Source: an uncultured Christensenellaceae bacterium
Lineage (GTDB): Bacteria > Bacillota > Clostridia > Christensenellales > UBA3700
Reading direction: 5' to 3'
DNA length: 37,743 nucleotides
Assembly: GCA_944381355.1 (NCBI GenBank)
Contig: CALWKV010000023.1
Location: 1-37,743, forward strand
Below the pieces are notes generated by a model. The model was not told where the DNA came from and searched no databases. It saw nothing but the letters and a program-made list of their open reading frames with translations. The position numbers were made by a program, and so were the translations under genes. Below, in pieces: positions 678-9,137 of this stretch (positions are counted from its first letter, which is position 1; the number at the start of each line of letters is the position of its first letter).

Positions 678-706
678 TTGACAAAGGTTCAACGATAAGT
701 TATAAT
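678..706 (+). promoter_or_regulatory. Consensus sigma-A promoter of the tandem-hairpin RNA
   Basis: TTGACA at 678-683 and TATAAT at 701-706 are separated by exactly 17 bp. Both hexamers match the consensus perfectly. No start codon follows before the terminator at 854-882, so the predicted product is a short RNA starting near 713. Confidence 0.8.
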
Positions 707-727
707 ATCTGTGAAGTGTTGAAAACA

Positions 728-836
728 AACCTGATTCTGGCACCGCCACAGCAGCGGCAGCAAGGCTGAACAGGCAGCCAAAACAACCTGATTCTGGCAC
801 CGCCATAGCAGCGGCAGCAAGGCTGAACAGGCAGCC
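728..836. repeat. Tandem direct repeat, 52 bp x 2, period 57 bp
   Basis: Copies lie at 728-779 and 785-836, identical except at 749/806 and separated by 5 bp. I saw no third copy in the window. The short spacing and self-complementary unit argue against a CRISPR array. Confidence 0.93.
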
Positions 837-853
837 CGAAAATCGACACTCGA

Positions 854-882
854 GGTCGTCCGTAGGACGGCCTTGTTTTTTT
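854..882 (+). terminator. Rho-independent terminator of the tandem-hairpin RNA
   Basis: An 8-bp stem (GGTCGTCC with GGACGGCC, one G-U pair) closes a 3-nt loop. It is followed by TT, a G and seven Ts. Confidence 0.8.
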
Positions 883-2305: not shown

Positions 2306-3043
2306 ATGAGAAGCAGGACACAGAAAATAGCTGATATGGCAATTTTTATCGCCCTCGGAGTGGTGTTAAATCTTTGTTCATTTCAGTCGTTCGGCACGTA
2401 TCTGGGAAGGATAAGTCTCGTTTATCTCTTTTGTTACCTTTCGGGATTCATTCTTGGACCGTGGCAGGGGTTTGCTGTCGCGTTTATCGCCGATCTTATC
2501 CCCGGGATATTTTTTCCGACGGGACCTTATTCTATAATTATATCGGTCAGCAACGCGACTATGGCGCTTATTGCGGGTTGTTACGGCAGATATACAGACT
2601 GGAAAGTCGTTTGGAAGCTGCTTGCGACTGCGGCGACGTCGTTTGTGGTCTGCACGCTTACTCTCACCGTTATCGGAGAAGTAAACAGCCTGCTGATAAT
2701 CCCTGTCGGAGAGTATGAAGCGGCAAGCCTATACAGTATGTATCCTTATACGCTTGCTAAAGTCATCATCGGCGAGGGGTGGGGAGTGAAAGAGCCTTAT
2801 TTCCAGATGATGCTTGCCAAGGCGATACAGCAACCGCTGTGGATCGTGCTTAATTCTTTGGTTACGTACGTGATTTACGCGAGACTTCAGCCGATACTCA
2901 AAAGGGGCGGCTACGTTGCGTCGGAGGAGCGCAAGAACGCGCAGGGCAACGGGCGTTCGCGTTATGACGGCGTTGTTATCGCGGGTAAACCCGCAGAGGA
3001 AAATCCGCCGTCTGCCTGCGACGGAGTAGTGATCGGCAAGTGA
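2306..3043 (+). CDS. folT: Folate-family ECF transporter S component
   Basis: Substrate-binding membrane subunit of an energy-coupling-factor importer. It would bind folate and work with the shared EcfT and EcfA1/A2 module, which is not in this window. The 245-residue protein has about six hydrophobic segments up to residue 200. It shows the S-component pattern of an N-terminal amphipathic start (TQKIADMAIFIALGVVLNL), GPWQGFAVAFIADLIPGIFFPTGPY, and a hydrophilic tail of about 45 residues that is probably lineage specific. The start follows AAGGAGG at 2291-2297. Folate specificity is inferred mainly from the THF riboswitch directly upstream. A strong bidirectional terminator follows. Confidence 0.85.
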   Translation: MRSRTQKIADMAIFIALGVVLNLCSFQSFGTYLGRISLVYLFCYLSGFILGPWQGFAVAFIADLIPGIFFPTGPYSIIISVSNATMALIAGCYGRYTDWKVVWKLLATAATSFVVCTLTLTVIGEVNSLLIIPVGEYEAASLYSMYPYTLAKVIIGEGWGVKEPYFQMMLAKAIQQPLWIVLNSLVTYVIYARLQPILKRGGYVASEERKNAQGNGRSRYDGVVIAGKPAEENPPSACDGVVIGK

Positions 3044-5297: not shown

Positions 5298-8200
5298 TTA
5301 TTTCGTATACTTGTCTTTCTTGCTCTTTGCGGGAGCGTCGGACTGTTTTCTGGAGCCGCTCTTGACGAGCTTCTTGCTCTTCTTGGAGAACTTCCTGAAC
5401 AGCACCACGATCACAGCCACGATGATGAGCGCGCCGAGAACGCCGGAGGAGATCCACAGCCACAGATAATCCGCAGCGGGATTGGTCGGGTCGGTCGGCT
5501 CGGTTTCTTCGGGTTCTTCTTCTGCGTCGGCGTCGTCCTGCGTGAATACGATGCGGTAGTTGTTTGCTACGAGTTCGTCAGCGATCAGCGATTCGTCGAT
5601 CGTATCCTCGGTTTCGCCTTCAACGGGCTTTCTGTCTATGAAGTCTTCTTCGCTTATTTCGTCAACGGTGAAGTTGTCGAAGAACGCATATCCCTTGACG
5701 AAGTTTTCTTCGTCCTCGTATCCGAGCGAAAGCGTCAGAGTAGCGGTCGGGGTGACGTCTGCGTCCGTCTTTACATAGAAGTTGTACTGAGTCCAGCTGC
5801 CAACGGTCTCGGTGCCGTCATCGGCGTAAGTCGAGGTGTTGACTGCGCGCTTGACGTCGTTGTCCTCGGTGCGGGTCAGCTTGCCGAAGGTGTAGCTGAG
5901 GTTGTTCAGCTTGAGAGCGATCGTCGCGCTGTCGTCCTTTTCCAGTCCGTAGGTCAGCACCCATACGCTTATTCTGTAATAGGTGTCGCCCTTGAGGGTC
6001 AGAGAGGACGAGGTGTACTTGTAGGCGTTGGCGTTCTTGTTGTAGATAACGAGTACGTTGTCGCCCACGTTGTTGGTGTCGGTATTGTTGTAGACCGCGT
6101 TGACGATCACGCTGTCTTCAGCGTTGTCGGGGTCGAGGTCGAGGAGAGACCAGTCGCCCTCTTTGCGGTTGAATACGCCTGCAGTCAGATCAACGTCGTC
6201 GGTGCTTGCGTCGTCGTCGATCTTGGCACCCGTCCAGTTGGAGGGAGTGGACGCCGCGCCTTCAGAAGTCGTATAGCTGTCGAAAGAGTCGGTATTGAAA
6301 GATCTCTCAAACACCGTCTTGCCGAGCGAGCCGTCAGAAGTAGCGGCATCGAGAACCGCGTTGTAAGTCATCTCTGACAGAGTGGTGTACGACGCCATCG
6401 TGAAGTATGCGGTCTTGACTTCGCCGGGCAGACCGTTTTCGCTACCTATATAAAGGTTGAGGTTTGCGGAGACGGAAGTCGCGCTGGTCCTGACAAGGAA
6501 GGTGTACTGCTGCCAGTCGGTGCCCATGTCGGTAGCCGTTATCGGAGATACCGAGTAGTTGGCGCTTTTTGTGGTCGTATCGAGAGATACGGTCATGACA
6601 GAGTTGGCTTCCATCTTTGCCCATACGGAAACGAGATAGTAAGAATCCGAGGACAGAGATATCGTGTTGGACTTGTATCCGAAGTAAGCCGCGTCGCCGC
6701 TTATCGCGAGGACGTTGGGGTAGTCGGTCGCGTTGATACCAGCCATATTCATCGAATCGTAGAAAGTAGCTTCGTCAACGGTAAGACCCGCGGCAGCCTT
6801 CTGATCTGCGTTGGTGATATCGAGAACGCCCGCGGTAACGTCGCCGTTCTTAAGAGAATCGGTATTGCTTGCCGTCCAGTTGGTGGGAACGCCGAGCGCG
6901 CCGGTCAGAACGCCGTCTGCATTGTAAACATCGTCGCCGTAGGTCTCCATCGTGGACTTGACGTCAACGTTCTTGAAGTAGCCGTTGGAAGAAACTTCCG
7001 CGCTGCCGCCCGTAGAAGTGAAGGAGTAAGTCTTGAGCACGGTCGAAGTGCTTGCCGACGAATAATCGGACGCGGTGATCTTTTCTACGGTCGCGGTGGA
7101 AACGAACGCGTATCCCATAACGAACGATGAGGAGTCGTTTGCAGTGCCGCTTCCGAGGCTGATGTCGAAGCCTATCTTAGCGGCTTCGGAGCCGGTCTGA
7201 ACGAAGAATCTGATCTCCGTGTAATCGGCGTTGTTGGCGCTCTTGTAGTCGGAGAGATTTTCTGTGTTCAGAGACGAGAAGGTGGACAGAGTTGTCTTGG
7301 AATCTTCAAAATCCTTTTCGTCGTCGTAACTGACGAGAGAGACCGTCAGACCGGAAGAACTGTCGATGTCCTTTGTCTTTATCCACATCGTAAACGTGTA
7401 ATAAGAGTTGGGCAGTACCGTGTAAGAACCGTCGCTGACCGTACCGTCCTCTTTTTCATATATATTTGAAAGAGTATAGACGGAGGGCAGATAGTTGTTG
7501 ATCACGAGCACAGAGGTCGCGAGAGAAGTCGGGGTCTCGGGGTTGTCGATAGAGGAGTAGCTGCCGTTTGCCCAGTTTGCCGTGTCGACTACGCCGAAAG
7601 AGCTTCTTCCGGTGATAGCGTCCTCGCCGCCCGCTTCGCCGAAGTTGGCGAGATTGAGCAGAGAGTCTGCGGTCAGCTCGCTTGCAAAGCTGTGTTTGAA
7701 TACCGTCTCGCTCTCGGTAGCCGCGGCAAATTCTTCAGCGGTAATTTCGGTGAGACTCATATCGTCTGCAAAGAAGATGCCTTGTACGTGCGTGGAAGTG
7801 TCGTCTGCACCGCCTTCGCCCAGCCAGAACTCAAGGTATACGTCCTGATATCTGAACTGATTGGATTCTACGTAAATGTCGATCTGTTTCCATTCGCCTG
7901 CGGTGTTGATGTTTTCAGCCGCAAAATATACCGTGGAATCTGTCGTGCCGTCTGTCAGTTTTATCGACATGCCTTTGCTCTGATCGGCGATGACCGTTCT
8001 CACCCAGATGCTGAGCCTGTAATATTCTTCGCCGCCGATGAAGCGCGTCGCAACCGTGCTTCTTATGCCGTAGGCGGTCGCTTTCTTGTTCTGCTGATAA
8101 TATATCCTGCCCTGAGAGCCGTCGTGCGTCGTGACAGCTATGTCGGTAGCCGACGCGCTGTCGGTCACGGTAGCGGTCTCCGCGGTCTTGAGGATGCCTT

Positions 8201-9137
8201 TGGTTATATAGTCCGAAGCGGAGGGAGCGTCGTCACCGTTGCCCGTGCCCTTGACGCCCGTGTACTTGCTGGGAGTGTAGGGGGAGGAGGTGGACGTCGT
8301 ATAGTCGAAGTCTGCGTCAGAGAGCTTCATCGTATACTTGGCTACGCTTTCGGTCTCTTTGAGTGCGCTGAAATCCTGAGCAGTCCATGCGGTCTCGTCC
8401 TCTTCGACGTCGGAGAGGTTTTCAAGCGTAACGCTGTCGAAGAACGCCCAGCCCTTGGTCATGGATTTCTCCATCTTGGAGCCGTTGCCCAGAGAGAGGA
8501 CCACGGTGATCGTCTGAGAGGAAATGTCGCTCGTCTCGATATAGACGTTGTATTCTTTCCATGCGCCCTCGGTGTCTATGGCTTCAAACGCCGCATAAGC
8601 CGCGCCGTTCACATAGATATAAGCGCCGCTTTTGCCTTCGTTGTACTCGCTGTCGCTCTTGTCGATGCCGATAGTCTTGACCCATACGCTGAGCTTGTAG
8701 TAAGACGACTTGTCCAGCGTTACGCTTGCGGACGTGTACTTGTAGACCGTTGCGACTTTGTTGTATATCATAAGGATATTGTCGTCTTCGCCGATCTTGC
8801 CCGGGTTTGCCGCGCCGCCGTAAGTCTTGCTGTTGGCGCGGTAAGTCTTGTCCTCGGTGCTGATGACGCCCGCGATAAGATTGTCGCTGCCGGTAGGGGT
8901 CTTATAGCTGTCGCTGGAGCTGGTGGAGGAGCCTGCCGCACCCGTCCAGTTGGTCGGGATCTGAGGATAGCTCGTGCCGTCAGCGCCGCTGAAACTGCCG
9001 TTGGTGAAAAGTTCGGAAGTAGATTCTTCTGTCGGACTCGTCGTAGTGTCGTCATTGCAAGCGACGAAAGATGCGACGAGAAGGATGCAGAGAATTGCCG
9101 AGATCACTGTGAGCAAAATTTTCTTGTTCCTTTTCAT
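5298..9137 (-). CDS. Large five-module surface lipoprotein with C-terminal membrane anchor
   Basis: A 1279-residue exported protein. Residues 1-27 form a lipoprotein signal (basic start, hydrophobic core, FVAC with Cys27). Five diverged modules of about 200 residues follow, at roughly 43-243, 267-466, 478-688, 699-922 and 941-1161. Each module tends to carry a P-NWTG type turn followed by AGV, then YKYTS..S..L....YY.LSVWV.T, a W..Y/I.(V/F)YV.T strand and a GYAFFD..T closing strand. This layout resembles beta-jelly-roll carbohydrate-binding modules. An acidic PE/T-rich linker (about 1201-1220) leads to a membrane helix at about 1224-1247 and a strongly basic tail. There is no LPXTG motif and no obvious enzyme domain. 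AAAGGTGG precedes the ATG. It is a single-gene unit. Glycan or surface binding is inferred; the protein itself I do not recognise. Confidence 0.85.
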   Translation of the reverse strand: MKRNKKILLTVISAILCILLVASFVACNDDTTTSPTEESTSELFTNGSFSGADGTSYPQIPTNWTGAAGSSTSSSDSYKTPTGSDNLIAGVISTEDKTYRANSKTYGGAANPGKIGEDDNILMIYNKVATVYKYTSASVTLDKSSYYKLSVWVKTIGIDKSDSEYNEGKSGAYIYVNGAAYAAFEAIDTEGAWKEYNVYIETSDISSQTITVVLSLGNGSKMEKSMTKGWAFFDSVTLENLSDVEEDETAWTAQDFSALKETESVAKYTMKLSDADFDYTTSTSSPYTPSKYTGVKGTGNGDDAPSASDYITKGILKTAETATVTDSASATDIAVTTHDGSQGRIYYQQNKKATAYGIRSTVATRFIGGEEYYRLSIWVRTVIADQSKGMSIKLTDGTTDSTVYFAAENINTAGEWKQIDIYVESNQFRYQDVYLEFWLGEGGADDTSTHVQGIFFADDMSLTEITAEEFAAATESETVFKHSFASELTADSLLNLANFGEAGGEDAITGRSSFGVVDTANWANGSYSSIDNPETPTSLATSVLVINNYLPSVYTLSNIYEKEDGTVSDGSYTVLPNSYYTFTMWIKTKDIDSSSGLTVSLVSYDDEKDFEDSKTTLSTFSSLNTENLSDYKSANNADYTEIRFFVQTGSEAAKIGFDISLGSGTANDSSSFVMGYAFVSTATVEKITASDYSSASTSTVLKTYSFTSTGGSAEVSSNGYFKNVDVKSTMETYGDDVYNADGVLTGALGVPTNWTASNTDSLKNGDVTAGVLDITNADQKAAAGLTVDEATFYDSMNMAGINATDYPNVLAISGDAAYFGYKSNTISLSSDSYYLVSVWAKMEANSVMTVSLDTTTKSANYSVSPITATDMGTDWQQYTFLVRTSATSVSANLNLYIGSENGLPGEVKTAYFTMASYTTLSEMTYNAVLDAATSDGSLGKTVFERSFNTDSFDSYTTSEGAASTPSNWTGAKIDDDASTDDVDLTAGVFNRKEGDWSLLDLDPDNAEDSVIVNAVYNNTDTNNVGDNVLVIYNKNANAYKYTSSSLTLKGDTYYRISVWVLTYGLEKDDSATIALKLNNLSYTFGKLTRTEDNDVKRAVNTSTYADDGTETVGSWTQYNFYVKTDADVTPTATLTLSLGYEDEENFVKGYAFFDNFTVDEISEEDFIDRKPVEGETEDTIDESLIADELVANNYRIVFTQDDADAEEEPEETEPTDPTNPAADYLWLWISSGVLGALIIVAVIVVLFRKFSKKSKKLVKSGSRKQSDAPAKSKKDKYTK

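Follow-up and report, generated by a model that had tools for sequence, protein, structure and literature searches.

A candidate structured small RNA of one or two near-invariant 52-nt units in a little-studied gut lineage

Organization of the element

The window analyzed here is a 37,743-nt stretch of DNA from an uncultured Christensenellaceae bacterium (GenBank assembly GCA_944381355.1, contig CALWKV010000023.1, positions 1 to 37,743, forward strand). Between uvrA and a convergent gene with a DUF4363 domain lies a compact plus-strand element that begins with a sigma-70-type promoter (678..706), recognizable from its sequence by TTGACA (678-683) and TATAAT (701-706), a 17-nt spacer and a match to the consensus at 12 of 12 positions. 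It ends with an intrinsic terminator (851..882), composed of an 11-pair stem (851-875) and a T7 run ending at 882. In between, AGTGTTGA (715..722) can pair over 8 bp with TCGACACT (843..850), forming the two strands of an outer closing helix around two 52-nt units (728..779 and 785..836), which start 57 nt apart. The copies differ at a single base (C at 749, T at 806), located within the seven bases between CCGC and GCGG. A 21-nt probe taken from the unit, allowing up to 3 mismatches, has two matches in the window and none in 100 shuffles; elsewhere in the source genome, nothing beyond 14-15-nt matches was found. The promoter, units and terminator, as well as the single loop difference, had been reported in a preliminary description of this DNA and are confirmed.

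Both units contain the same short segments, in the same order. In the first, CCUG (730..733) is followed by a CCGC/GCGG arm (743..757, loop 747-753), which shows no variation in this unit among the five two-unit RNAs described below, and by a predicted GGCUG/CAGCC hairpin (764..779) with CAGG (771-774) in its loop, invariant and thus without covariation. An A-rich linker (780..786; 7 or 8 nt in all five two-unit RNAs) leads to the second unit, which has an inner CCUG (787..790), a second arm (800..814, loop 804-810) with one compensatory change to CCAC/GUGG in genome G012, and a second predicted GGCUG/CAGCC hairpin (821..836) with an invariant stem and the last CAGG (828-831) in its loop.

An alternative to an RNA product would be a repeat that encodes protein, on one strand or the other. 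A minus-strand ORF (689-1024) runs across the repeats, a TTG-initiated frame of 50 codons passes through both units in G014, and G000 has a GTG-initiated frame of 17 codons. However, the G000 frame is missing from G008, G023 has no plus-strand frame of at least 15 codons, and no plus-strand frame common to the carriers was found. Moreover, unit spacing is 57 nt in three two-unit genomes and 58 nt in the other two, so that reading frames shift, which argues for RNA. Given the differing spacings and the lack of a shared frame, coding on either strand was rejected and has next to no chance of being correct; the earlier claim that no start codon opens a plus-strand frame through the repeats stands insofar as no frame is conserved among carriers.

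Distribution and genomic context

A blastn search of 99 related genomes with positions 700-882 produced matches in 10, counting the source itself. The element is present in eight of them (G000, G004, G008, G012, G014, G019, G023 and G030), and the other two matches, a terminator-like stretch in G061 and 19 nt in G009, were discarded as chance. With a covariance model of 60 positions built from 13 units, the same eight were positive among 46 genomes of one bacterial family (E of 3e-17 or better for each unit), with one locus per carrier genome. Five RNAs have two units (G000, G012, G030, G014 and G019) and three have one (G008, G004 and G023); unit number differs even between the sister genomes G000 (two) and G008 (one). 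The promoter scores 11 or 12 of 12 with a spacer of 16-18 nt in all eight carriers, and each has a hairpin followed by a T-rich run in its DNA. The combination of promoter, outer helix, one or two near-invariant units and terminator is thus found in eight genomes, repeating the anatomy of the source in seven others. Variable copy number and compensatory changes had been named beforehand as potential support for a small RNA, and both are present among the carriers, as is conservation in relatives.

Outside the family, the covariance model added no credible member when run on samples of 396 genomes from the order (7 of the 8 carriers among them), 391 from the class and 398 from the phylum, using Infernal’s stricter filters, which diverged members could escape. 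Weak rows came from 11 of the 18 order genomes with a match (E 0.0016-0.073), 3 of 11 matching family genomes (one of them new), 2 of 3 in the class and 3 of 4 in the phylum. Thirteen weak loci (8 of 12 from order and family, 5 of 5 from class and phylum) were rejected after their DNA was read, lacking the promoter-units-terminator layout and in many cases overlapping ORFs; the other four from the order and family (L023, L025, L026 and L030) were judged from alignments only. Nine stretches were recovered by a pattern search of GTDB r220: seven belong to relatives, and two, from Coleofasciculus and Cytophagaceae, were taken as chance matches limited to model positions 35-56. No match to two patterns was found in IMG/VR. 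Phage and plasmid searches gave no credible member: all 17 phage rows cover at most 29% of the query (E 2 or worse), and the best 20 of 73 plasmid rows cover at most 20% (E 0.1 or worse).

Rfam 15 (4227 models) has no match on the element in the window, where its sole match lies elsewhere. Rows below gathering for positions 600-960 are at best far under their cut-offs, and no row falls on the element in the seven relatives at E up to 1. No description of this RNA was found in the literature, judged on the titles and abstract openings listed. These results support the earlier view of the element as a candidate for a new small RNA, about 170 nt long.

Neighboring genes are not constant across the eight loci. 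In G000, G008, G004 and G012 the element lies between uvrA (named by eye; Pfam identifies the fragment as ABC_tran) and a convergent gene. It is absent from the same uvrA-side site in G010, G006, G005, G009 and G003; congeners without the RNA have other terminator-like hairpins there (by eye). The remaining carriers have it beside GerAC and hydrolase genes (G030), YqfD (G014), aminotransferase and Fic genes (G019), and HAD hydrolase and another Fic gene (G023). The two Fic-domain genes differ from each other and are both downstream on the same strand as the RNA (L040 411-1466, minus strand, in G019; L039 1937-2878, minus strand, in G023), an association that is possibly coincidental. At 6 of 8 loci the next listed downstream gene is convergent. 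A tree of the UvrA C-terminal fragment, covering 29 of the 46 genomes and leaving out G041 and the carrier G023 (no locus), clusters the four same-genus carriers with support of 90/90, short of the mark of 95/80 set by the tool, and with one fork drawn open. A single gain at the uvrA site would fit this grouping.

Pairing within and between units

The preliminary description assigned both copies one and the same bulged-hairpin fold. This is not supported for CCUG and CAGG, which match between units rather than within them in 3 of the 5 two-unit RNAs; the inner CCGC/GCGG arm of that fold stands, with the compensatory change in G012. The first CCUG and last CAGG co-vary, as CCUA/UAGG in G030 and G014 and as CCCG/CGGG in G019, and are CCUG/CAGG in G000 and G012, so that both-sided changes affect 2 of 4 positions across the five RNAs. 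The inner CAGG and inner CCUG are complementary and constant in all five. A pairing of the first CCUG with the last CAGG, and of the two inner segments (CAGG and CCUG) with each other, is therefore supported, on few loci: outer CCUG/CAGG variation comes from three informative genomes and perhaps two events, and neither the inner exchanged helix nor the GGCUG/CAGCC stems vary in the five RNAs.

Under this exchange pairing, 130 of 130 cells are paired and three pairs are changed on both sides (two in the outer CCUG/CAGG, one in the arm), and the covariation score was reached by 4 of 500 shuffles. For within-unit pairing the corresponding values are 127 of 130 cells, one both-sided pair (in the arm) and 97 of 500 shuffles; the mismatches occur in 3 of 5 two-unit RNAs, those in which the CCUG/CAGG letters vary. 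The arm change in the second unit of G012 is common to both models, and a measure of further pair types showed no excess for the exchange model (500/500 shuffles). Matching outer ends could also result if an inner segment had been inserted into a one-unit RNA. Even then the match has been maintained, and G014 and G019, two members of one genus, differ at these ends.

Folding energies give a mixed picture. With both arrangements drawn nested and the hairpins left out, exchange has the lower energy in all five two-unit RNAs (-16.7 versus -13.1 kcal/mol for within-unit pairing in G000), and the arm with the GGCUG/CAGCC hairpin (-23.7 to -25.7) is more stable than either nested fold. Unconstrained minimum-energy folds reach yet lower energies and diverge both from the model and from genome to genome. 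RNAalifold, which draws no pseudoknots, recovered the hairpins and the outer helix, with inner pairs other than those of the model. The outer helix has two pairs changed on both sides in the five two-unit RNAs (RNAalifold) and is 5-8 bp long in 8 of 8 RNAs; in G014 and G023 the best closing helix found by script is in another register. The predicted 170-nt transcript, including the terminator, folds only moderately better than its shuffles (z -2.4; 4 of 200 equally stable), and units taken singly show no advantage over theirs (z -0.6 to +0.7). Both results weaken the earlier argument for selection on structure.

The units are probably joined by pseudoknots, because CAGG sits in a predicted hairpin loop. 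If the hairpins form, the model makes both joints H-type, with stems of 5 and 4 bp and AA in the short loop, and the inner joint would use the A-rich linker as a long loop of 7-8 nt. In one-unit RNAs the lone CCUG can pair with the lone CAGG, in cis or with a second molecule; in G023 these are CUUG/UAGG, with two wobbles.

Candidate function and competing explanations

With its own promoter, its own terminator and no conserved frame, the element has the layout of a free-standing small RNA gene, and sequence comparison gives good support to both the gene and its family. The reading that we favor for its function is a structured RNA with strand-exchanged, pseudoknotted units that would bind a protein through one or two sites, and our confidence in this combination is evenly divided between belief and doubt. 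The free-standing gene would encode a candidate structured RNA in whose two-unit form strand exchange links the units, each joint presumably being a pseudoknot with CAGG in the loop of the GGCUG/CAGCC hairpin. The product could be a compact particle with pseudo-twofold symmetry, shut by the outer helix. Least certain, and suggested by analogy, is that the invariant surface may be a protein binding site present once or twice per molecule, and that the RNA may hold or sequester a protein encoded elsewhere, in the manner of abiF and type III antitoxin RNAs. The preliminary description had likewise suggested an RNA that might sequester a protein or an mRNA. Protein binding is favored by the large conserved surface, by the variation of the open arm loop and by the occurrence of sites singly or in pairs. 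A bolder version is tentative and somewhat doubtful: a new class of RNA, in which identical units swap strands to build a covalent two-unit particle with two binding sites, and one-unit forms pair in trans into the same particle. If true, this would be RNA domain swapping that evolves through simple gain and loss of units.

The closest functional parallel is RCd22 of Clostridioides difficile, in which two abiF motifs in one RNA are described as binding and neutralizing AbiF (PMC12373285). The layouts are alike, RCd22 being described as a short structured RNA that has a SigA-type promoter, carries the motif twice and ends in a terminator (PMC12373285). The present RNA is not a member of the abiF family (RF03085): it has no Rfam match, its unit is 52 nt versus 33-35 nt for abiF, no abiF/Abi_2 gene lies downstream, and Abi_2 occurs in only 1 of 8 carriers. 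Repeated units are also found in ToxI/CptI type III antitoxins, and pseudoknots, probable here, are reported for ToxI (PMC8860590). In contrast to those systems, no carrier has a ToxN-family gene, and the modeled strand exchange occurs within one RNA and does not require a protein. As for the pseudoknotted tandem repeats of type III RNAs, repeats are present in 5 of 8 RNAs here and the pseudoknot is a prediction. Y RNAs, which are bound by Ro60/TROVE proteins, have ends that close a stem around a structured core. The closing helix described here resembles this arrangement, but TROVE was found in 0 of 46 family genomes.

In favor of an antitoxin RNA related in type to abiF or type III RNAs, whose linked toxin gene was lost or whose toxin is encoded elsewhere, are the RCd22-like order of promoter, repeated motif and terminator (PMC12373285), the pseudoknots formed by ToxI repeats (PMC8860590) and the same-strand Fic genes downstream in G019 and G023. 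We nevertheless consider this reading unlikely. A same-strand downstream gene is missing at 6 of 8 loci, and the Rfam abiF family gives no match. ToxN (PF13958) occurs in 3 of 46 family genomes, none of them carriers, and Abi_2 in 6 of 46, one of them a carrier with the gene on another contig and none beside the element in the loci read; these genomes are drafts (the source is 78% complete), which makes such absences soft evidence. Neither these families nor TROVE or Hfq co-occur with the element.

Equally unlikely, in our estimation, is a trans-acting small RNA that regulates mRNAs by base pairing. A free-standing unit with its own promoter and terminator is what such an RNA would need, but the arm loop belongs to the more variable segments, and in the model most of what is conserved is paired. 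Hfq (PF17209), found in 5 of 14 control genomes, was detected in 0 of 46 family genomes, which also speaks against it, although many Gram-positive small RNAs work without Hfq.

Units that are compact, strongly conserved and present once or twice ahead of a terminator would also suit a riboswitch-like RNA, with units acting as metabolite- or ion-binding aptamers on their own terminator, and tandem riboswitches are similarly described as having a conserved structured unit in one or two copies before a terminator (PMC9481103). No same-strand gene for such a system to regulate follows at 6 of 8 loci here, and the element matches no Rfam riboswitch. A leader role is unlikely at those six loci, because the next listed gene is convergent, and we regard the riboswitch-like explanation as improbable overall.

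Two further explanations have very little in their favor. The element could be a processed 3' end or terminator of uvrA and similar genes, without a job of its own, as its position directly after uvrA in four genomes and the other terminator-like hairpins of RNA-free congeners (by eye) might suggest; it has, however, its own strong promoter, unrelated neighbors in the other four genomes and invariant 52-nt units that a terminator would not need. A small mobile element carrying the RNA incidentally would explain the patchy occurrence at different sites and similarity that ends at promoter and terminator. Against this, there is a single locus per carrier genome, four same-genus carriers occupy one site and group with 90/90 support, and copies were not found among phages, in the best 20 of 73 plasmid rows or in IMG/VR.

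The element would add a compact RNA family outside Rfam, from a little-studied gut lineage, and its natural variation in unit number makes the comparison of one site with two directly testable. If the exchange pairing is right, it would be a case of natural RNA domain swapping, with tandem duplication offering an uncomplicated way for a monomer to become a dimer. How RNAs of this kind can persist on their own would also be illustrated by an antitoxin-like layout that lacks a linked toxin.

Elsewhere in the window, a THF riboswitch (RF01831; 2141-2237, plus strand, 68.8 bits) precedes an ORF (2306-3043) that, by eye, looks like an ECF-type folate transporter; THF riboswitches are also found near the element in L004, L006 and L009. 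On the minus strand, a 1279-aa ORF (5298-9137) starts, by eye, with a signal-like stretch, contains several long segments that resemble one another and ends in what looks like a membrane anchor.
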